A stretch of DNA of 64,000 nt from Promicromonospora sp. MEB111 (GTDB lineage: Bacteria > Actinomycetota > Actinomycetes > Actinomycetales > Cellulomonadaceae). Position 1 is the first letter of the stretch; each line of letters begins with the position of its first letter. Below, piece after piece: positions 12,380 through 21,549 of this stretch. The stretch covers positions 1 through 64,000 of the forward strand of contig NZ_JARVSD010000022.1 of the NCBI RefSeq assembly GCF_030209445.1, written 5' to 3'. The position numbers and the translations under genes were made by a program. Below the pieces are notes generated by a model. The model was not told the DNA's origin, did no database searches, and saw only the letters and a program-made list of their open reading frames with translations.

Positions 12380-12469
12380 GGACCCATCTTGCTCCACGGG
12401 GCGGGGTGACGTTTCACACGGCCGCGCCGCACCGGACACGCGGCGGAAACAGGCCGCCTCTAGCGTTCC

Positions 12470-12492
12470 GAATGTTCCTCTGATCAACATTC
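12470..12492. promoter_or_regulatory. operator-like palindrome before the catabolic operon
   Basis: GAATGTT (12470-12476) and AACATTC (12486-12492) form a perfect inverted repeat with 9 bp between. The core ATGTT-N9-AACAT, including the right half ATCAACAT, recurs at 21024-21044 before the flavin reductase. It lies 33 bp upstream of the first operon gene, a position suited to repression. Confidence 0.6.
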
Positions 12493-12524: not shown

Positions 12525-13874
12525 GTGCACGACGGCACCACGAGGTCGGCGCCTCTCCCCGTCGGTGGTCCCGACGGTGCCGCGCTGCTCGCCGGCGCCC
12601 ACGTCACCGCCCTGCGCGGTGTGCGCACCGTCGACGGCGAGCTCGTCGACGTCGAGATCGACGCCGGCCGGGTCACCTCCGTGGCGCCCGCCGGCCGGTT
12701 GCCGCACCTGGGCGACGACGCGGGGCGGCTGGACGCGACGGGCTGGCTCGCGCTCCCCGCGGCGTGCGAGCCGCACGCGCACCTCGACAAGGCGCTGACC
12801 GCCGCGCGCATCCCCGCCGGGACGGGGGAGGACCTGGTGGGCGCGATCGAGCGCTGGCGGGAGATCGCCCCGCACATCGACGGCGCCGACGTGCTCGACC
12901 GCGCCCGGGCCGCCGTGGGGCGCTACGTCAGCCGGGGCATCACGACGGTCCGGACCCACGTGGACGCCCCCGCGGAGGGCGACCCGCTGCGCATGCTCGA
13001 CGCGCTGCTCACCCTCCGCGAGGAGCTCGCGGGGTCGGTGACGCTCCAGGTCTGCCTCCTCGGCGGGTGGCACACCCCCACCGAGGTCTTCGCCGAGGCG
13101 GCCGCCCGCGGGGTGGACGTGCTCGGCGGGTGCCCGCACCTGGCTCCCGACCCGCGCGCGGAGATCACCCGGGTGCTCGACCTGGCCGAGCGCACCGGTC
13201 TGCCCGTGGACCTGCACGCCGACGAGCAGACGGCGCTGCCGGACGACGGCGTGCTCGACGTCGAGGCGCTCGCCCGCGAGGTGATCGCGCGCGGCCTGAC
13301 CCAGCGCGTGACCGCGAGCCACGTCGTGCGGCTCGGGTCGCTGCCGCCGGACCGCCTCGGCCCCGTCGTCGACCTCGTCGCCCGGGCCGGCCTGGGCGTG
13401 GTGACGCTGCCGATCACCAACCTCTACCTCCAGGGCCGCGACAGCACGCACCTCGCGCCCCGGGGACTGACCGCCGTGCGTGCCCTCCTGGACGCGGGGG
13501 TCCCCCTGGCCGCGGGGGCCGACAACCTGCGCGACCCCTTCAACCCCGCGGGCAGCGCCGACCCCTTCGAGACGACGTCGCTGCTCATGACCGCGGCGCA
13601 CCTGTCCGCGCGGGAGGCGCTCGACGCCGTGACGTCGGGCGCCCGCACCGTGCTCGGCCTCCCGGCCGCGGGACTGTCTGTCGGCGACCGTGCCGACCTC
13701 GTGCTGGTGCCCGACGTGCCGCTCGGCGACGTGCTGGCCGGCGCGACCCTCGCGCGCGTGGTCGTCGCCGGCGGCCGCGTCGTGGCCGACACCCGCGTGC
13801 AGACCGCCCTCGCCCTCGGACCGGCCGCCATCCCGGCGGCCGAGGCCCCGCAACCCGACCAGCTCGTGAGGTGA
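12525..13874 (+). CDS. cytosine-deaminase-like metal-dependent amidohydrolase
   Basis: A 449-aa amidohydrolase most like cytosine deaminase (CodA) and its relatives, which deaminate cytosine, isoguanine, creatinine or similar heterocycles. Metal and catalytic residues are in place: HAHLDK at 84-89, HADEQ with His231, SHV with His266 and GADNLRDPF with Asp333, the usual CodA-like spacing. GTG at 12525 is preceded by GGAGAGGAGA at the right distance. It is the first gene of a six-gene operon; its TGA overlaps or abuts the next start. Substrate is unknown and the binding-pocket residues cannot settle it. Confidence 0.82.
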
Positions 13875-13879
13875 CCCCA

Positions 13880-14650
13880 GTGAGCACAGTGAGCACGACG
13901 ACCCCGCGACCCCGGTCCATGACGCGCACCCTCGTGCTCGACGACGTGGCCAAGGCGTTCCCGACCGGCACCGTGGCGCTCGAGGGGGTGAGCCTGACGG
14001 TCGCCGCCGGGGAGTTCGTCTCCGTCGTCGGGCCCTCCGGCTGCGGCAAGTCCACCCTGCTGCGCCTCGCCTCGGGGCTCGACGAGGTGACCGGCGGCGA
14101 CATCGAGGTGAACGCCACCTCGACGTCGTACGTGTTCCAGGAGCCCACGCTCCTGGAGTGGCGCAGTGCGCTGCGCAACGTCGAGCTCGCGGGCGAGCTG
14201 CGGGGCGCCGCGAAGGCGGACCGCCGCAAGCGGGCGCAGGAGGCGCTCGACCTCGTGGGCCTGACCGGCTTCGAGAAGCAGCACCCCCGGCAGCTCTCCG
14301 GCGGCATGCGGATGCGCGTGTCGATCGCCCGGGCGCTCGTCGCCGAACCCGACCTCGCGCTGTTCGACGAGCCGTTCGGGGCACTCGACGAGATCACCCG
14401 CCTGCGGATGCAGACCGAGCTGCAGAGCCTGTTCGCGCTCAAGGGCTTCGCCGGGCTGTTCATCACGCACTCCGTCTCGGAGGCGGTCTACCTCTCCACC
14501 CGGGTGGTCGTGATGAGCGGCCGCCCCGGCCGCGTGGTGGCCGACATCCCCGTCCCCTGGTCCTACCCGCGCCCGCCCCGGCTCCGGTACGAGCCCGAGT
14601 TCGCGGCGCTCACCGGCGAGGTCTCGGCGGCCCTCGAGGAGCACTCATGA
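13880..14650 (+). CDS. ABC importer ATPase, SsuB/NMT1-transporter type
   Basis: A 256-aa ATPase of the nitrate/sulfonate/taurine/thiamine-precursor importer class. Walker A GPSGCGKST is at residues 51-59, the Q-loop in SYVFQEPTLLEWRSAL, the signature LSGGMRMRVSIARAL near 139 and Walker B LALFDEPFGALDE near 157. GTG at 13880 has GAGGTGA five bases upstream; an alternative GTG at 13871 overlaps the previous stop. The stop overlaps the permease ATG (ATGA), so the two are translationally coupled. Confidence 0.92.
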   Translation: MSTVSTTTPRPRSMTRTLVLDDVAKAFPTGTVALEGVSLTVAAGEFVSVVGPSGCGKSTLLRLASGLDEVTGGDIEVNATSTSYVFQEPTLLEWRSALRNVELAGELRGAAKADRRKRAQEALDLVGLTGFEKQHPRQLSGGMRMRVSIARALVAEPDLALFDEPFGALDEITRLRMQTELQSLFALKGFAGLFITHSVSEAVYLSTRVVVMSGRPGRVVADIPVPWSYPRPPRLRYEPEFAALTGEVSAALEEHS

Positions 14651-15483
14651 GCACCGCCCGACCGATCGCCGCCCGCCCGACGACCGCCCGACGCAGGCTG
14701 TTCTCCGCCGGGGCCGCCGCTTGGCCGCTGCTCGCGGCCGTGCTCGGCATCGTCGCCGTCTGGTACGGCGTCACCTACCTCGTGCTCGCACCCGAGCGGC
14801 GCTTCCTGCTGCCGCCGCTGCACGAGGTGCTCGGAAACACGCTCGGCAACCCGAACGTCATGAACCCCATGTTCGACGCCCTCTGGCAGACCGTCGGGGT
14901 GGCGCTGTGCGGGCTGGCGATCGCGGTGGTGCTGGGCATCGGGTACGCCGTGGTCATGGCGCAGGCCGGCTGGGCGGAGAAGATCCTCTACCCGTACGCC
15001 GTGATCCTGCAGACCATCCCGATCCTGGCCCTCACGCCCCTGATCGGGATCTGGCTGGGCTACGGCTTCAGCGCCCGCATCGTCGTGTGCGTGATCATCG
15101 CGCTCTTCCCGATGATCGCGAACACGCTGTTCGGGCTGCAGTCCGCCGGTCCCGCCGCGCACGACCTGTTCACGCTGAACCGCGCCACCCGCGTGCAGCG
15201 GCTCCTCAAGCTCCAGTTCCCCGCGGCGCTCCCGTCGATCTTCACCGGCCTGCGCAACGCGGCGGGCCTGAGCGTCATCGGTGCCATCGTCGGCGACTTC
15301 TTCTTCCAGCAGGGCTCGCCGGGGATCGGCGGCCTGCTGCGCACCTACACGCTGCGCCTGAACATGGACGCCCTGTTCATGGCCATCATCCTCACCGCGC
15401 TGTTCGGGGTCGCGATGTTCTCCGTCTTCGCAGCGCTGGACCGGGCCGTCATCGGCCGCTGGTACGGCCGCGGCGCCGCCTGA
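14647..15483 (+). CDS. ABC importer permease, SsuC/NMT1-transporter type
   Basis: A 278-aa membrane permease with about six TM segments, BPD_transp_1 fold. The coupling EAA-like loop is visible around HDLFTLNRATRVQRLLKLQFPAALPSIFTGLR (quoted in part), where it docks on the ATPase. It forms a homodimer in the membrane with the ATPase encoded just upstream. The start overlaps the ATPase stop by 4 bp. The family takes up small heterocyclic or sulfonated substrates. Confidence 0.92.
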   Translation: MSTARPIAARPTTARRRLFSAGAAAWPLLAAVLGIVAVWYGVTYLVLAPERRFLLPPLHEVLGNTLGNPNVMNPMFDALWQTVGVALCGLAIAVVLGIGYAVVMAQAGWAEKILYPYAVILQTIPILALTPLIGIWLGYGFSARIVVCVIIALFPMIANTLFGLQSAGPAAHDLFTLNRATRVQRLLKLQFPAALPSIFTGLRNAAGLSVIGAIVGDFFFQQGSPGIGGLLRTYTLRLNMDALFMAIILTALFGVAMFSVFAALDRAVIGRWYGRGAA

Positions 15484-15527
15484 GCGCCGCGCGTCCCCCT
15501 CGCCCCCCTCCCCCCTCAGGAGTCCTC

Positions 15528-16733
15528 ATGCCCTTGTCCCTCATGCCCTTGTCCCGACCGCGACGCCTCGCGTTCGCCGCGCTGTCCGTCCTCCCGCTCC
15601 TCGCCCTGACCGCCTGCGGCACCGGCACCGCCGACGCGCAGGCGGGCGGCACCGGCCAGGTCGACGCGCCGGCGGCGGAGGCCGGCGGACCCCTCGACCT
15701 CGCCGACGTGTGTCCCGCGACCGTCGTCATGCAGCAGGACTGGCAGCCCGAGGCGGAGCACGGGGCGATGTACTCGCTCGTCGGCTCGGACCTCACGGTG
15801 GACACCGACGCCAAGTCGGTCACCGGCTCCCTGGTGGCCCAGGGCGTCGACACCGGGGTGGACATCGAGGTGCGTCCCGGCGGGCCGAACGTGAACTTCC
15901 AGCCCGTCCCGTCGCTCATGTACCTCGACGACTCGATCCTGCTCGGCGCGGTGACCACCGACGCCCAGATCACCGCGCTGGCCGACAACCCGGTGGTCAC
16001 CGTCGCCTCGATGCTCACCACCAGCCCGCAGATCGTGATGTGGGACCCGGAGAGCCACGACGGCGCCGAGACGATCGAGGAGGCCGCCGCGGACGGCGAC
16101 CCCGTGGTGTCCTCCGGCGACGTCTTCCCCCGCCTGCTCGCCGCCCAGGGCATCATCGACGACGCGCAGATCGACCTCAGCTACGAGGGCACGCCGCAGC
16201 GCTTCGTCTCCGACCCGGCCGTGCTGCAGCAGGGGTTCGCCACGGCCGAGCCGTACATCTACGAGAACGAGATCCCGCAGTGGGGCAAGCCGGTCGGGTA
16301 CCAGCTCCTCGCCGACGTCGGCTACTCGGTCTACCCGGAGGCGCTCGCCGTGCGCGCCGACAAGGTCGAGGAGAACGCCGACTGCCTCGCCAAGCTCGTG
16401 CCGATCATGCAGCAGGCCCAGATCGACTACCTCGACGACCCGCAGGCCACCAACGAGCTGATCGTCGACCTCGTCGACCAGTACCAGACCGGGTGGACCT
16501 ACTCGCTCGGCGTGGCCGACTTCTCCGTGCAGGCCCAGAAGGACCTCGACCTCGTGGTGGACGACCCGGCCTCCGGGGTGTTCGGCAGGATCGACCCCGA
16601 CCGCATGACCGAGATCGTCGACACCTTCGCGCCGATCCTCGTGGACGCAGGCCAGATCGAGTCCCCGGACATCGAGCCCGAGTCGCTGTACACCAACGAG
16701 TTCACCGACGACACCATCTCGATGGGGAGCTGA
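15528..16733 (+). CDS. ABC importer substrate-binding lipoprotein, NMT1/THI5-like
   Basis: A 401-aa extracytoplasmic lipoprotein. The signal peptide has an Arg-rich start (RPRR), hydrophobic core and lipobox LTAC with Cys30 as the lipid-modified residue, followed by a Gly/Ala linker. The mature part resembles NMT1/THI5-like binding proteins for pyrimidines and other small heterocycles, with GTPQRFVSDPAVLQQGF and EIPQWGKPVGYQLLADVGYS (in part). ATG at 15528 has AGGAG five bases upstream. It delivers the substrate to the permease encoded just before it. Confidence 0.85.
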   Translation: MPLSLMPLSRPRRLAFAALSVLPLLALTACGTGTADAQAGGTGQVDAPAAEAGGPLDLADVCPATVVMQQDWQPEAEHGAMYSLVGSDLTVDTDAKSVTGSLVAQGVDTGVDIEVRPGGPNVNFQPVPSLMYLDDSILLGAVTTDAQITALADNPVVTVASMLTTSPQIVMWDPESHDGAETIEEAAADGDPVVSSGDVFPRLLAAQGIIDDAQIDLSYEGTPQRFVSDPAVLQQGFATAEPYIYENEIPQWGKPVGYQLLADVGYSVYPEALAVRADKVEENADCLAKLVPIMQQAQIDYLDDPQATNELIVDLVDQYQTGWTYSLGVADFSVQAQKDLDLVVDDPASGVFGRIDPDRMTEIVDTFAPILVDAGQIESPDIEPESLYTNEFTDDTISMGS

Positions 16734-16742
16734 CGAGCACCG

Positions 16743-18101
16743 ATGACCGACCACACTCCGAACACCGCAGAGCGGTCCGGTCTGGCCGCGGCCGAGATCG
16801 CCCGCACGCTCGGGCCCGGGCTCGTCTCCGTCGAGGCGGAGCTGCTGCTCAAGGCGTCGTCCGACTGGTCGCGCATGTCGCCGATCCTGCGGGAGAAGGT
16901 CCCCGCGGGCCGGTACCTGCCCGACGCCGTGGTGCGCCCGACCACCGCGGACGAGGTGGCGCAGGTGCTGCGCATCGCCTACGAGCACGACGTACCGGTG
17001 ACCCCGCGCGGGTCGGGGACGGGCAACTACGGGCAGGCGACGCCGTTCGACGGCGGGCTCGTGCTCGACCTGCGCGGCCTCGACACGATCCGGGTCAACG
17101 ACTCGGGCACGGTGACGGCGGGCGCGGGCGCGAAGATCAGCGCGATCGACGTGGCGGCCCGGGCCGCCGGACGGGACATCTGGATCTACCCGTCCACCAA
17201 GGGGACGACGATCGGCGGCTTCGTGGGCGGCGGCTCGGCCGGCACAGGGACGATCGAGCACGGGTCCACCTCCGACGGGTTCGTGCTCTCGCTCACCGTC
17301 GCCCCGATGGACGGCAGCGGCACCACGTTCACCGTGACCGGCCCCGACGTCATGCCGTACGTGCACGTCTACGGCGTCACCGGCGTGATCGTGGAGCTGG
17401 AGATCGCCACCGACCCCGCCCGCGACTGGGTCGCCGTCTACGCGGCCTTCGCCGACTGGGCGTCGCTCACGGGCGTGCACCGCTCGCTGCTCGACCTGCC
17501 GGTGCTGCCGCGGCTCGCGTCCGCGGACCCACCCGCGCTGGTGCCGAGCCTGCCCGCCACCGTGCCGCTCGACCCCGAGCGGTACAGCCTGCGCGTCATC
17601 GCAGAGGCCTCGACCGTGGCCGAGGTCGAGGCGCGGATCGTGGCGGCGGGCGGCGCGGTGGTCGCGAGCCTCGCGGACTACGCGGAGACCGACAAGCTGT
17701 CGTCGATGTCGTACAACCACCCGGTCTACCACCTGCAGCAGGCGCACCCCGAGCGCACGTGGTTCCACATGGAGACCGGCGGCCGGGCGCACTGGGAGCG
17801 TGAGGACGAGGTCCGGGCCGTCTACGACGGCGACGTCCACCTGCACCTGGAGCTCATGGGCACCGCCCCGCTCGCCATGGTGGTCGCCGACTACGTCTCG
17901 GAGGCCGAGGCGCTCGCCGGGATCGAGCGCCTGGAGGCGCTCGGCCTGGGCGTGCACTCCCCGCACCAGTGGTACGTGGACCGGCACGTCGACCTCGCCC
18001 GCGAGACGGCCCGCACCACCGACCCGAAGGGTCTGCTCAACCCGGGCAAGCTCGTGGACGCTCCGCCGGTCGACACCCGCGTGAACATCGGGGTGCGCTG
18101 A
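16743..18101 (+). CDS. FAD-linked oxidase (VAO/PCMH family)
   Basis: A 452-aa flavoenzyme. A PCMH FAD-binding domain spans residues about 50-230, with VTPRGSGTGNYGQATPFDGG near 85 and GGFVGGGSAGTGTIEHGSTS near 160, followed by a cap domain and the C-terminal DPKGLLNPGKLV seen in glycolate and lactate oxidases of this family. No covalent-flavin histidine motif is obvious. The start lies nine bases after the binding-protein stop. Within this operon it probably oxidises the imported compound or an intermediate, but substrate and electron acceptor are unknown. Confidence 0.82.
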   Translation: MTDHTPNTAERSGLAAAEIARTLGPGLVSVEAELLLKASSDWSRMSPILREKVPAGRYLPDAVVRPTTADEVAQVLRIAYEHDVPVTPRGSGTGNYGQATPFDGGLVLDLRGLDTIRVNDSGTVTAGAGAKISAIDVAARAAGRDIWIYPSTKGTTIGGFVGGGSAGTGTIEHGSTSDGFVLSLTVAPMDGSGTTFTVTGPDVMPYVHVYGVTGVIVELEIATDPARDWVAVYAAFADWASLTGVHRSLLDLPVLPRLASADPPALVPSLPATVPLDPERYSLRVIAEASTVAEVEARIVAAGGAVVASLADYAETDKLSSMSYNHPVYHLQQAHPERTWFHMETGGRAHWEREDEVRAVYDGDVHLHLELMGTAPLAMVVADYVSEAEALAGIERLEALGLGVHSPHQWYVDRHVDLARETARTTDPKGLLNPGKLVDAPPVDTRVNIGVR

Positions 18102-18925
18102 TGGGCGCGGCCCGGGCCCCGCGGTTCGCCGACTTGACCTGGCCGGAGATCGAGGCGCTGCCCGACGACACGGTGGCGGTGCTGCCCCTCGGCGCGATCG
18201 AGCAGCACGGCCCGCACCTCCCGGTGTCCACCGACCTGGTCACGGCGACGGAGGCCGCGGCGGCCGCCGCCGCGGCGGTGACGGCGTCCGGTACGGCGTC
18301 CGTCGTGCTGCTCGAACCGCTCGCCTACACCAAGTCGGACGAGCACGCCGGGTTCCCCGGCACGATCTGGCTGTCGTGGGACACGCTCATGCGCGTGCTG
18401 GTGGACGTCGGACGGTCCGTGGCGGCCTCGGGCATCACCCGGCTGCTGTTCGTCAACGGGCACGGCGGCAACTCCGCGCTCGGCCAGGTCGCGAACCGTG
18501 AGCTGCGCCGCCGGTTCGGGCTGCGCACCTTCTTCGCGCACGTCGCGACGCCGCGCGACCAGGGCGGCGCCCCGGCGTCCGGCGCCGAGCACGGGCTGGG
18601 CGTGCACGGCGGCCACGGCGAGACCTCGCTCATGCTGCACCTGCGCCCGGAGCTGGTCCGGATGGACCGCGCCGAGCGGCGCGTGCCGGAGGACCTGCTC
18701 GCGTACGAGCAGATCGGGTTCGGCCGGTCGACGTCGTTCGGCTGGCTGTCGAGCGACTTCGGCCCGGACGGCCACATCGGCGACCCGACGACCGCCACCG
18801 CCGAGGCGGGCAAGGAGCTCTTCGAGCACGCGGTCGAGCACCTCGCACGCACCTTCGTCGAGGCGTCCAGGTTCACCACCCCGGCCGACGGGGCCGCGGG
18901 GCTGACGCCGCGGGACCGCGGGTGA
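18101..18925 (+). CDS. creatininase-family amidohydrolase
   Basis: A 274-aa hydrolase of the creatininase fold, a metal-dependent amidase or lactamase family. Metal ligands are visible in LPLGAIEQHGPHLPVSTD (E34, H36, D45), NGHGGN (H121) and HGGHGETS (E174). Known members open creatinine, formamidopyrimidines or peptides. Its ATG shares one base with the stop of the FAD oxidase, and its own stop overlaps the next GTG, so it is tightly coupled. In context it likely opens a cyclic amide produced by the neighbouring enzymes. Confidence 0.87.
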   Translation: MGAARAPRFADLTWPEIEALPDDTVAVLPLGAIEQHGPHLPVSTDLVTATEAAAAAAAAVTASGTASVVLLEPLAYTKSDEHAGFPGTIWLSWDTLMRVLVDVGRSVAASGITRLLFVNGHGGNSALGQVANRELRRRFGLRTFFAHVATPRDQGGAPASGAEHGLGVHGGHGETSLMLHLRPELVRMDRAERRVPEDLLAYEQIGFGRSTSFGWLSSDFGPDGHIGDPTTATAEAGKELFEHAVEHLARTFVEASRFTTPADGAAGLTPRDRG

Positions 18926-20325
18926 GCGCTGCGGGGGCGGGCGGCGAGGTCGGCGGCCGGCCGCGGACGGCGCCGGGGCTGGTCGTGCGGGGTGCGCTCG
19001 CGGTGCGCACCGGGCCGGGCGCCGTCGAGGGCGAGCCGGGCGGCGACGTCGTGGTGGGCGCGGACGGCCGGGTGGTGCGTGTGGGTCCGTCCGCTGGGCC
19101 CGTGGCCGGCGGGCTCGCGGGCGGCGTCGAGGAGCTCGACGCCACCGGGTGCGTCGTCACGCCCGGGCTCGTGAACGCGCACCACCATCTGTTCCAGACG
19201 GCCTTCCGGACGCTGCCCGGCACCCGCGGCGTCCTGATGCGCGAGTGGCTCGGCCTGATGGCCGCCGCCTACGCGCGTGCCCGGGTGGACGCGGAGCTGG
19301 TGGGTCTCGCCGCACGCGCGGGGCTCGCCGAGGCGCTGCTCAGCGGCGTCACGACCGTCGCCGACCATCATCTGACCTGGCCCGCGGTGCTCTCCACCGC
19401 CGAGACGGTGGACCTCGCCCGGGCGGCGGCCGGGGCGGCCGACGAGCTCGGGGCGCGCCTCGTGCTGGTCCGCGGCTCCGCGGGCGACGACGCCGAGGCG
19501 GCGGCGTCGAGCGCCGACGCGATCGCCGCGGCGCTGGTGGGCGACGCGCCCGGTGGCGTGCGGGCCGACGGCCGCGTCCAGGTGGCGGTCGGCCCGGCCG
19601 GCGTGCACAGCGACGGCGAGCAGACGTTCCGGCTGCTGGGCGAGGTGGCGGCGCGGCGCGGGCTGCGCCGTCGCACCCAGGCCAACGAGCAGGTGGACGT
19701 GGTCGCGGCGCTGGAGCGCTACGGCCGGCGCCCGCTGGACCTGCTGGACGAGTGGGGCTGGCTGGCCCCCGACGTCACGGTCGCGCACCTGTGCGACGTC
19801 ACCGACGACGAGATCGCCCGCCTCGCCGCCTCCGGCGCGTCCGCGACGCACGCGCCGGGGTGCGACGTGCCGATGGGCTGGGGCGTCGCGCCGGTGGCGC
19901 GGCTGCTCGCCGCCGGCATCACCGTGGGCCTCGGCACGAGCGGCGGCGGGTCCAACGACGCCGGCCACCTGCTCGCGGACGCGCGGCTGGCCATGCAGGT
20001 CTCCGCCCTGGTCGGCCGCCAGCTCACGGCGCGCGAGCTGTTGGACGCCGCCGGCGCGGGGTCGGCGGACGGGCTCGGCAGGCCCGAGCTCGGCCGGCTG
20101 GAACCCGGCTCGGCGGGGGACCTGTGCGTCTGGGACGTGAGCGGAGTCGCCGACGCCGGGGTGGCCGACCCGGTCGCCGGCCTGCTCTGGGCCGCGCCCG
20201 GGCGCAGGCCGCGCCACGTCGTGGTCGGCGGGCGGGTGGTCGTCCGCGACGGCCGCCTCGTGACGGCGGACGAGAGCGACATCGCGCGTGGGCTCAGCCG
20301 GCGTCTCGCGGGAGTCGCTGCTTGA
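18922..20325 (+). CDS. 8-oxoguanine-deaminase-like amidohydrolase (Atz/Trz family)
   Basis: A 467-aa amidohydrolase of the ATZ/TRZ class. VNAHHHLFQT at residues 85-94 is the hallmark of 8-oxoguanine deaminases and hydroxydechloroatrazine-type enzymes, which have three histidines where most members have HxH. Further motifs are GVTTVADHHLTW near 135, TQANEQVD near 252 and THAPGCDVPMGWGVAP near 310. It starts with GTG overlapping the creatininase stop. It ends the operon and overlaps the 3' end of the convergent regulator by 32 bp. 8-oxoguanine to urate is the nearest known reaction; a pterin or triazine is possible. Confidence 0.83.
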   Translation: MSAAGAGGEVGGRPRTAPGLVVRGALAVRTGPGAVEGEPGGDVVVGADGRVVRVGPSAGPVAGGLAGGVEELDATGCVVTPGLVNAHHHLFQTAFRTLPGTRGVLMREWLGLMAAAYARARVDAELVGLAARAGLAEALLSGVTTVADHHLTWPAVLSTAETVDLARAAAGAADELGARLVLVRGSAGDDAEAAASSADAIAAALVGDAPGGVRADGRVQVAVGPAGVHSDGEQTFRLLGEVAARRGLRRRTQANEQVDVVAALERYGRRPLDLLDEWGWLAPDVTVAHLCDVTDDEIARLAASGASATHAPGCDVPMGWGVAPVARLLAAGITVGLGTSGGGSNDAGHLLADARLAMQVSALVGRQLTARELLDAAGAGSADGLGRPELGRLEPGSAGDLCVWDVSGVADAGVADPVAGLLWAAPGRRPRHVVVGGRVVVRDGRLVTADESDIARGLSRRLAGVAA

Positions 20326-20893
20326 CGACCAGCAGGCGGTAGGGCTCGCCGTCGGCGCTGGCCCAGCGGTGGCGGGTGCCGCCGCGGTAGAAGGCGGAGT
20401 CGCCCGGTCCGGCACTCTCCAGCGTCCCGTCGAGGTCGAGCAGCACGTGCCCCTCCACGACGTAGGCGAACTCGTCCTCGTCGTGCGCCCAGTACGGACC
20501 CGGCTCGCGGGACGTCCCGGTGTACTCCATCGGGTCGAACGGGCGGTCGCCGGCCGGAGCGAGGGCCCGGACGGTGCCGCCGCCCGCCGAGGCGGCCGAA
20601 GCGTCGTCGGTCCGGCGCACCACGGGGGTGCCGCCCGCGGCGGGCGCCGTGCCCTCGGTGAGCAGGAGCTGCTGGGTGGTGCCCAGCCGGTCCGCGACGC
20701 GGAACAGCGACGACATGCTCAGCCGTGCCCGGCCGCGTTCGACCTGGCTGAGGAACGAGTGCGAGAGGCCCGTCGCCTCGGCGAGCTGGACGAGGGTCAG
20801 GCCCTGGGCATGGCGCAGCCCGCGGATCTTCTGCCCCAGGCGGGTGACCGATCGATCGAGAGGGTCGGTGGCCTCGTCGATACGCACGTCCAT
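20294..20893 (-). CDS. XRE-family regulator with C-terminal cupin sensor
   Basis: A 199-aa regulator: HTH_3 domain at residues about 18-72 (IRGLRHAQGLTLVQLAEATG, then LSHSFLSQVERGRARLSM) and a cupin domain at about 120-195 (HDEDEFAYVVEGHVLLDLDG). Such proteins (PuuR-like) sense small metabolites and repress catabolic operons. It is convergent with the operon and divergent from the flavin reductase, and is the best candidate to bind the ATGTT-N9-AACAT palindromes. A TAGCAT -10-like box ends seven bases before its ATG, which suggests a leaderless transcript. Confidence 0.9.
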   Translation of the reverse strand: MDVRIDEATDPLDRSVTRLGQKIRGLRHAQGLTLVQLAEATGLSHSFLSQVERGRARLSMSSLFRVADRLGTTQQLLLTEGTAPAAGGTPVVRRTDDASAASAGGGTVRALAPAGDRPFDPMEYTGTSREPGPYWAHDEDEFAYVVEGHVLLDLDGTLESAGPGDSAFYRGGTRHRWASADGEPYRLLVVKQRLPRDAG

Positions 20894-21023
20894 GCCTCGA
20901 ATGCTAGGGGAGGCGGGCCCTCGGACGGTGGCGTTGCGGCGCGTTTCGGGGCTCGTCCGCAGCCGTAACAGAACCCGCGCGCCGGAGTGATCCCGGCGAA
21001 ACATCGAGCGCGGAGGATGGAGA

Positions 21024-21044
21024 GATGTTGATGTCATCAACATC
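21024..21044. promoter_or_regulatory. 21-bp perfect palindrome over the flavin reductase start
   Basis: GATGTTGATG-T-CATCAACATC is a perfect inverted repeat with 10-bp arms around a single central base. It covers the start codon of the flavin reductase. Its ATGTT-N9-AACAT frame matches 12470-12492, including the whole right half ATCAACAT. A bound repressor would block both transcription and initiation. Confidence 0.65.
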
Positions 21045-21549
21045 GCCTCTCGATCCCGTCGCCGACGGTTTCCGGGACGCGATGGCCGGGCTGGCGAGCG
21101 GCGTGTGCGTGGTGACGACGGCGGCGGGCGGAGTGCCCGCGGGCCTGACGACCACGGCGGTGATGAGCGTGAGCTTGGACCCGCCGCTGGTCGCCGTCGG
21201 GGTCGCGCACTCCAGCCGCACGCTCGGACCGCTGCGGGCGGCGCGACGGTTCGCCGTCCACGTGCTCGCGCACGACGCGCGGGACGTGGCTGCGGTCTTC
21301 GCCTCCAAGGCGCCGGACAAGTTCGCCGGCCTCGCCGTCCGACCGGGTGAGGGCGGTGTACCGGTCCTCGTCGAGGACGCGCGGCACGTGCTGGAGTGCG
21401 AGACCTGGACCGAGGTCGAGGCCGGCGACCACCTGCTGCTCCTGGGGCGGGTGGTCCGGGTGCACGCCTCCGGGTCCGTCGAGGGGCGCGCTCTGGTGCA
21501 CTTCGACCGCACGTTCCACGAGGTCGGGCCGGAGCGCACCGAGGGCTGA
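21025..21549 (+). CDS. flavin reductase-like FMN-binding protein
   Basis: A 174-aa flavin reductase domain protein (HpaC/DIM6 fold), which reduces FMN or FAD with NAD(P)H for a partner oxygenase. The FMN-binding motif is GVCVVTTAAGGVPAGLTTTA near residue 30, with VSLDPPLVAVGV following; HFDRTFHEVG closes the domain. ATG at 21025 has GGAGG eight bases upstream; ATG at 21031 has GGAGAG six upstream and is equally possible. No oxygenase partner is encoded nearby. The shared operator ties it to the operon at 12.5-20.3 kb. Confidence 0.85.
   Translation: MLMSSTSPLDPVADGFRDAMAGLASGVCVVTTAAGGVPAGLTTTAVMSVSLDPPLVAVGVAHSSRTLGPLRAARRFAVHVLAHDARDVAAVFASKAPDKFAGLAVRPGEGGVPVLVEDARHVLECETWTEVEAGDHLLLLGRVVRVHASGSVEGRALVHFDRTFHEVGPERTEG

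Follow-up and report, generated by a model that had tools for sequence, protein, structure and literature searches.

Two described systems of actinobacteria may be compared with a gene cluster of Promicromonospora sp. MEB111, found in a stretch of 64,000 nucleotides (contig NZ_JARVSD010000022.1, positions 1–64,000), which we call the window. One is the urate/allantoin pathway: according to the accessible part of PMC4617892, uricase, guanine deaminase, formamidases and their relatives rise in M. smegmatis under nitrogen limitation. The other is the lum operon for lumichrome (riboflavin) of Nocardioides simplex, which resembles the cluster as an operon of an actinobacterium with hydrolases for a nitrogen heterocycle (accessible part of PMC12746152). 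The window has a guanine-cytosine (GC) content of 72%. The cluster consists of seven plus-strand genes (A to G, 12525–20325), followed by a convergent minus-strand gene (H) and by another plus-strand gene (I). A first-pass annotation, made from the sequence alone, had proposed that these genes import a nitrogen heterocycle, deaminate it twice, oxidize it and open its ring. It knew of no described pathway with this set, and no description turned up in searches of an open-access library aimed at the gene set. The cluster belongs to a known kind of system, the catabolic operon, with an undescribed composition and regulon. In our opinion it is probably a repressed, nitrogen-activated module for the import and degradation of a small amide-bearing compound, rich in nitrogen and probably cyclic.

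A conserved and bounded gene set

In the window, mshD on the left and acs on the right are separated by the 9.2 kb which contain A to I. Gene E is present in 4 of 13 genomes of the genus. Six of the nine genomes without E were checked, and in all of them mshD adjoins acs, 90–120 base pairs (bp) apart. It follows that the 9.2 kb come or go as a whole, and that H and I, which the first-pass annotation had placed beside the operon, belong to this unit.

A relative of E scoring above 300 bits is found in 20 of the 221 genomes of the family, including Promicromonospora sp. MEB111; the next match has 64 bits. All 19 other E-bearing genomes contain A-B-C-D-E-F in the same order and on a single strand, interrupted in one of them by a short-chain dehydrogenase, as expected for the single import-and-catabolism module which had been suggested. 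G directly follows F in 8 of these 19 genomes and is found elsewhere in the fetched stretch in six more.

We have extended the comparison to 99 loci: the 19 family loci and the best 80 of 593 relatives from a scan of named genomes. Two of them (L052 and L111) duplicate others (L036 and L040), so at most 97 are different, and many are cut by contig ends. Genes were called in the fetched loci with a home-made GC-frame caller, which may miss genes or misplace starts; in loci with lower GC the longest open reading frames were used. E is found in 96 loci, A and F in 81 each, and B, C and D in 80 each. H (57 loci), G (56), a PNPOx-like protein (51) and a VanB-like reductase (46) are less frequent. 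All six genes from A to F are present in 67 loci, and they are ordered on one strand in 63 of these: 53 without insertion and 10 interrupted by one or two genes, while the remaining 4 have another order. This gene set is far beyond chance. Krasilnikoviella flava and Streptomyces canus, two culturable and non-pathogenic actinobacteria, are among the carriers of the module. The first-pass annotation had suggested a search for conserved gene order, and the rare co-occurrence which would have spoken against an operon is not seen.

Outside Actinomycetota, E is accompanied by F without A in four loci (L121, L122, L123 and L126), and by A without F in three (L129, L130 and L131): E is thus the most constant part. 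In Paenibacillus, parts of the operon are reshuffled, and genes for a Rieske oxygenase and for a TRZ/ATZ hydrolase accompany them. A plasmid search gave relatives of E in three records and no relative of G. The surroundings were viewed for two of these records, plasmids of one Rhizobium and one Comamonadaceae strain, which contain reshuffled creatininase-family, importer, amidohydrolase and FAD (flavin adenine dinucleotide) oxidase genes with an NAD(P)H oxidoreductase gene; the Comamonadaceae plasmid also has RidA. In two other loci the caller split A in two pieces (L059) or gave two D pieces (L070), which may be frameshifts or caller errors.

The positions of the genes and of the sites described below are given in Table 1. 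The plus-strand genes do overlap or abut, as first annotated, although seven are listed instead of six: The overlaps are 4 bases (B/C), 1 (E/F) and 4 (F/G), and the gaps are 5 (A/B), 44 (C/D) and 9 (D/E). The broad families were correctly named. Pfam matches are Amidohydro_3 (A), ABC_tran (B), BPD_transp_1 (C), FAD_binding_4 (E), Creatininase (F), Amidohydro_1 (G), HTH with Cupin_2 (H) and Flavin_Reduct (I). No match was obtained when the window was scanned for Rfam families (gathering scores) and for tRNA genes.

Table 1. Genes and putative control sites of the cluster (positions in the window).
Feature	Position	Strand	Description
GlnR-type box	12413..12450	+	a-site TTCACACGGCCGCGCC (12413–12428, mismatched at 4 of the 9 fixed positions), b-site GACACGCGGCGGAAAC (12435–12450, 1 mismatch), upstream of A
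Putative -10 element TAGCGT	12461..12466	+	between GlnR-type box and operator; conserved block, presumed function
Operator (putative)	12472..12490	both	ATGTTCCTCTGATCAACAT, upstream of A
A	12525..13874	+	CodA/AtzC-like amidohydrolase; metal ligands kept, no CodA glutamine
B	13880..14650	+	ATP-binding cassette (ABC) transporter ATPase, TauB/SsuB type
C	14647..15483	+	ABC transporter permease, SaoP/SsuC type
D	15528..16733	+	substrate-binding lipoprotein, divergent NMT1/THI5 type
E	16743..18101	+	FAD-dependent oxidase/dehydrogenase (FAD_binding_4); closest solved structure 6v42/6v43
F	18101..18925	+	creatininase-fold hydrolase; no creatininase by cut-off or metal motif
G	18922..20325	+	TrzN/8-oxoguanine-deaminase-like amidohydrolase; metal site altered (Q253, S340)
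H	20294..20893	-	XRE-cupin regulator; probable repressor at both putative operators
GlnR-like half box	20987..21002	+	GTGATCCCGGCGAAAC, upstream of I, 1 mismatch
Operator (putative)	21025..21043	both	ATGTTGATGTCATCAACAT, upstream of I or over its start
I	21025..21549	+	flavin reductase (Flavin_Reduct); unit and operator in common with A

Putative operator, regulator H and probable nitrogen control

A palindrome of 19 bp, ATGTT-n9-AACAT, is found before A and before I. When the window is searched for AATGTTGAT-n3-ATCAACATT with up to three mismatches, these two sites are the only ones, and 100 shuffles give 0. The exact ATGTT-n9-AACAT is likewise found only in these two places in the 6.23-Mb assembly, where the reversed pattern has 0 matches. 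A stricter form of the operator appears exactly once in 15 of the 16 relatives searched (19 were available), and is absent from the other one (G048). No operator is found in the 10 kb fetched around mshD-acs in six genomes of the genus without E. Before I, the palindrome overlaps the listed start codon. The start of I is 21025 as listed and 21082 according to the GC-frame caller, so translation may begin only at 21082; alternatively, the mRNA might have almost no leader.

The palindrome accompanies H. In the 74 actinobacterial loci with A and a length of at least 9 kb (15 non-actinobacterial loci and those below 9 kb were left out), both H and an operator anywhere in the locus are found in 50, H only in 9, the operator only in 1 and neither in 14. 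An operator is thus present in 50 of 59 loci with H and in 1 of 15 without it. This co-occurrence points to H as the binder, short of proof, and the loci are related. H is probably a repressor. In a cousin genus, the operator has cupin and formamidase genes to one side in the four genomes viewed, where the flavin reductase is also called in three of them. A TRZ/ATZ hydrolase is found on the other side in three, while the fourth (G203) has an unrelated gene there. Genes outside the operon are thus marked by the operator as well. In one of these genomes (G202) the TRZ/ATZ call runs over the operator, so its start must be wrong. Two of the four also have an MTHFR-like gene with a CPKxMxFGPCGG start after the TRZ/ATZ gene (L151, 5077–6156; L152, 5261–6382). 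Its relatives are found in 16 of the 99 loci. This gene hints that the substrate may contain a one-carbon group.

The promoter of A resembles the box arrangement given for GlnR of S. coelicolor, with the consensus gTnAc-n6-GaAAc (accessible part of PMC10704036). We have examined 76 A promoters (the first A of each locus, with six non-actinobacterial loci dropped), of which 31 distinct ones have an exact operator. When these are aligned on the operator, GTnAC-n6-GAAAC is found without mismatches in 18, with one in 12 and with two in 1. The distance of this b-site from the operator is almost fixed: of the 30 promoters with at most one mismatch, 26 have it 21 bp upstream, 3 have it at 22 bp and 1 at 43 bp, so 26 of the 31 distinct promoters have the b-site exactly 21 bp away. 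The interval from the box to the operator contains a TAGnnT-like block. Exact half-boxes are found upstream of A in 27 of 82 cases, of I in 3 of 15 and of G in 12 of 61, versus 18 of 762 for other genes. The palindrome with H and the GlnR-type half box, which is weak in the window, together support nitrogen scavenging under a dedicated repressor.

Active sites of the enzymes and the importer

The profile searches of A, F and G miss the curated cut-offs for all specific enzyme names tested. Profiles of the CodA/AtzC branch (NF005759, cytosine deaminase, and NF005748) give A 192 bits versus cut-offs of 403 and 438. A relative of A in Rhizobium passes the first one, with 692.5 bits. H84, H86, H231, H266 and D333, which we take to be metal ligands, and the presumed acid E234 are kept in 72 of 72 sequences. 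Cytosine deaminase of E. coli (1k6w) aligns with most of the length of A and has the same ligands and acid. Its glutamine after barrel strand 3, presumably Gln156, stabilizes the intermediate and corresponds to an alignment gap in A. At the matching position of A (181), glutamine is found in 0 of 72 sequences; in 8 it is one or two positions further on. Q175, a glutamine in 34 of 72, is aligned with a different glutamine of CodA. The strand-3 residue is essential: CodA is inactive once it is replaced (accessible part of PMC12828455).

G is similar to 8-oxoguanine deaminase, with 264.5 bits versus a cut-off of 532 (NF006055). It keeps the HxHxxQ motif (with H87 and H89), Glu256 and His289. Nevertheless, in all 47 sequences with at least 55% identity, including that of the window, the third metal histidine is Gln253 and the metal aspartate is Ser340, so the histidine and aspartate ligands of 8-oxoguanine deaminase (subtype III amidohydrolases) are lacking. 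Among solved structures, G is nearest to that of the triazine hydrolase TrzN (3ls9), with which most of its length can be aligned. TrzN has three zinc histidines and a threonine; G differs from it in the third histidine, which is glutamine, and has serine at the aspartate position. TrzN and G thus both have a hydroxyl residue where AtzA has aspartate. The accessible part of PMC4356373 calls Thr325 of TrzN unique at its position; by alignment, G is a second case. The idea that G is an ancestor of TrzN was considered on the basis of this alignment only. As A lacks the CodA glutamine and G two metal ligands, the two deaminations proposed in the first-pass annotation are not supported. Hydrolysis by A and by F is still likely.

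F matches the Creatininase family of Pfam (247 bits). It falls below all four curated cut-offs: 104 bits versus 235 for creatininase (TIGR04448), 151.8 versus 172 for MftE (TIGR03964), and those of IolN and ArfB. In 71 of 71 sequences Glu34, His36, Asp45, His121, His169 and Glu174 are kept, together with G122-G123. The metal motif of creatininase is NGHxEN, whose glutamate we take to be a metal motif residue, and F has NGHGGN in its place. Creatininase activity as such, which had been suggested, is not supported by these data, and creatinine as a substrate is unlikely. Another gene coding for a creatininase fold, 38% identical to F, is found on contig 5 of the same genome (L159, 8618–9385), beside what look by eye like a GntR-type regulator and an FAD monooxygenase-like gene.

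E matches 6v42/6v43, an FAD/FMN-containing dehydrogenase, along nearly the whole of its length (family profile, 240.7 bits). No paper on 6V42/6V43 turned up in the open-access literature. A second FAD_binding_4 protein (BagK/FevA-like) is found after I in L036–L040, mostly beside a TRZ/ATZ-type gene, and none in the window. The flavin of E may be served by either of two proteins, I and the PNPOx-like protein, presumably both split-barrel flavoproteins, which nearly exclude each other. Among the 79 loci with A and E, 47 have only the PNPOx-like protein, 14 only I, 2 both and 16 neither.

D has no Pfam match at 0.001. Its score for NMT1, a similarity noted from the start, is below the cut-off (13.8 bits versus 20.5). 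Counterparts in four non-actinobacterial operons reach 76.8–145.9 bits when scanned; the binding protein of L041 has no NMT1 match.

Proposed function, rival explanations and related pathways

We suggest the following mechanism. H, bound just downstream of the A and I promoters, would block both until a ligand fills its cupin domain, and a GlnR-type activator would raise transcription under nitrogen shortage. D, C and B would import a compound which is small and rich in nitrogen, in all likelihood cyclic and with an amide (lactam) bond, and A would hydrolyze one of its C–N bonds. E would oxidize, with FAD, a carbon next to nitrogen or oxygen, and F would hydrolyze the amide bond exposed by this oxidation, so that the nitrogen ends as ammonia. 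G, whose active site is unusual, would be an accessory enzyme for the same substrate family, and reduced flavin would come from I. In the cousins, the products would be broken down to the end by an AtzH-amidase, a BiuH/RutB-like hydrolase and a formamidase. Streptomyces versions do add the AtzH-amidase, whose first domain gives a match with HpxZ (oxalurate catabolism) as well, and the BiuH/RutB-like isochorismatase. These assignments, and that of the formamidase, come from scans of cluster representatives, all below the curated NCBIfam cut-offs. Thiamin pyrimidine, a pterin, hydantoin/parabanate, 5-azacytosine and triuret-type compounds are candidate substrates: Each of them matches part of the gene set.

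An oxidized purine was one of the candidates of the first-pass annotation. According to this explanation, an oxidized or N-methylated purine would be deaminated by A and G and oxidized by E, and the product would follow the route from urate or hydantoin to allantoin. Some neighbors fit: allantoinase (16 of the 99 loci), uricase (15), XdhC (15), OHCU decarboxylase (14) and HIU hydrolase (12) are found in the fetched stretches, presumably mostly in Microbacteriaceae, and these are a minority of loci which might reflect only shared nitrogen control. Uricase (TIGR03383) is present in 15 of the 20 operon genomes and in 59 of the 201 other family genomes, which are related and therefore not independent; the other 5 operon genomes have no match. 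In a metagenome-assembled genome of Chloroflexi (L121, 8859–12132), E and F come after two genes, one RidA-like (assigned by eye), the other a xanthine phosphoribosyltransferase gene that exceeds its cut-off (205.5 bits versus 177). The resemblance of G to 8-oxoguanine deaminase also fits, but two of its metal ligands are missing in all 47 sequences, and A lacks the CodA glutamine. The VanB-like reductase might be added as well, and in one locus (L095) it is beside a Rieske oxygenase. MEB111 itself has its urate genes in a separate cluster on contig 16 (L158, 3125–15174): Uricase, OHCU decarboxylase, allantoinase and allantoate amidohydrolase exceed their cut-offs there, while HIU hydrolase, transaminase, xanthine dehydrogenase-like, TadA-like deaminase and SsuA-type binding-protein genes are below them, the last one of the same broad class as D. 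An exact GlnR-like half box is found at 13399 in this cluster. A purine route through urate is not required, and a purine as the substrate is rather unlikely.

Some related proposals were rejected. E as an alternative urate oxidase does not agree with the presence of uricase and E in one locus in 15 of the 99. Proteins with a Rieske motif (280–480 amino acids) were called only in L095, L115, L117, L118 and L126, and only L095 has the VanB-like reductase too, so they are not its general partner. Riboflavin/lumichrome degradation has a different gene set.

The substrate need not be a heterocycle. It could be an amide-linked hydroxy acid, an opine or a sugar amide, with E as a hydroxy-acid dehydrogenase and F as an amidase like IolN, an inositol enzyme of the creatininase family to which F is weakly similar. 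The best match of E among named families is glycolate oxidase GlcD, and after 6v42 its next-best solved relatives are labelled D-lactate dehydrogenases, so a ring substrate is not proven. However, two enzymes of the amidohydrolase superfamily in one operon, an NMT1-type importer, GlnR-type promoters and the BiuH/RutB-like, AtzH-amidase and formamidase genes of the cousins all point to nitrogen-rich carbonyl compounds, and we give this alternative only a small chance. Detoxification of an antimicrobial or xenobiotic ring would suit the likeness of G to TrzN and the patchy presence in the genus. It is very improbable: the dedicated ABC importer, the GlnR-type promoters and the spread over several phyla favor nutrition.

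Several results weigh against a nitrogen-activated module for a cyclic compound under H, in addition to the GlcD match of E. The sequences are related, so our counts are no independent events. G has no match in 43 of the 99 loci, and 9 of the 59 loci with H have no operator. Forty-five of the 76 A promoters are outside the 31, being repeats or having no exact operator. The second repeat (a-site), 22 bp further upstream, is poor, with 2–9 of its 9 positions mismatched, and matches like the half box of the window are at chance level there. No full a-b-a-b double box with at most three mismatches was found in the whole genome, where the amtB promoter, a positive control, has only a GTCAC-n6-GTAAC variant. 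MtrA is able to bind GlnR boxes, according to the title of a reference in the accessible part of PMC10704036, and is a possible alternative binder.

Even so, import and degradation of a nitrogen-rich, probably cyclic amide is the explanation which we favor. A conserved, bounded module, with its regulon of two sites and its dedicated binding protein, offers a handle on a nutrient: D may be used to screen compounds and the operator of H as a reporter, and sister strains with the empty site are natural controls. Such a module would add a nitrogen source for soil and plant-associated actinobacteria, and would correct misleading deaminase and creatininase annotations. Perhaps it also contains a new metal-site variant close to TrzN, an atrazine-degrading enzyme. 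We tentatively consider a wider possibility: an undescribed pathway of nitrogen catabolism over Actinomycetota, Bacillota and Pseudomonadota, for a class of substrates which bacteria are not known to degrade. G, seen in the actinobacterial versions so far, would then be an amidohydrolase whose metal site (two His, Gln, His, Ser) belongs to none of the known subgroups.

In summary, the cluster differs from both described systems. The urate/allantoin pathway has none of its enzymes in the operon. The lum operon has 25 proposed genes, including a P450, a xanthine oxidase and a Rieske dioxygenase, and the word creatininase is absent from the main text of PMC12746152.

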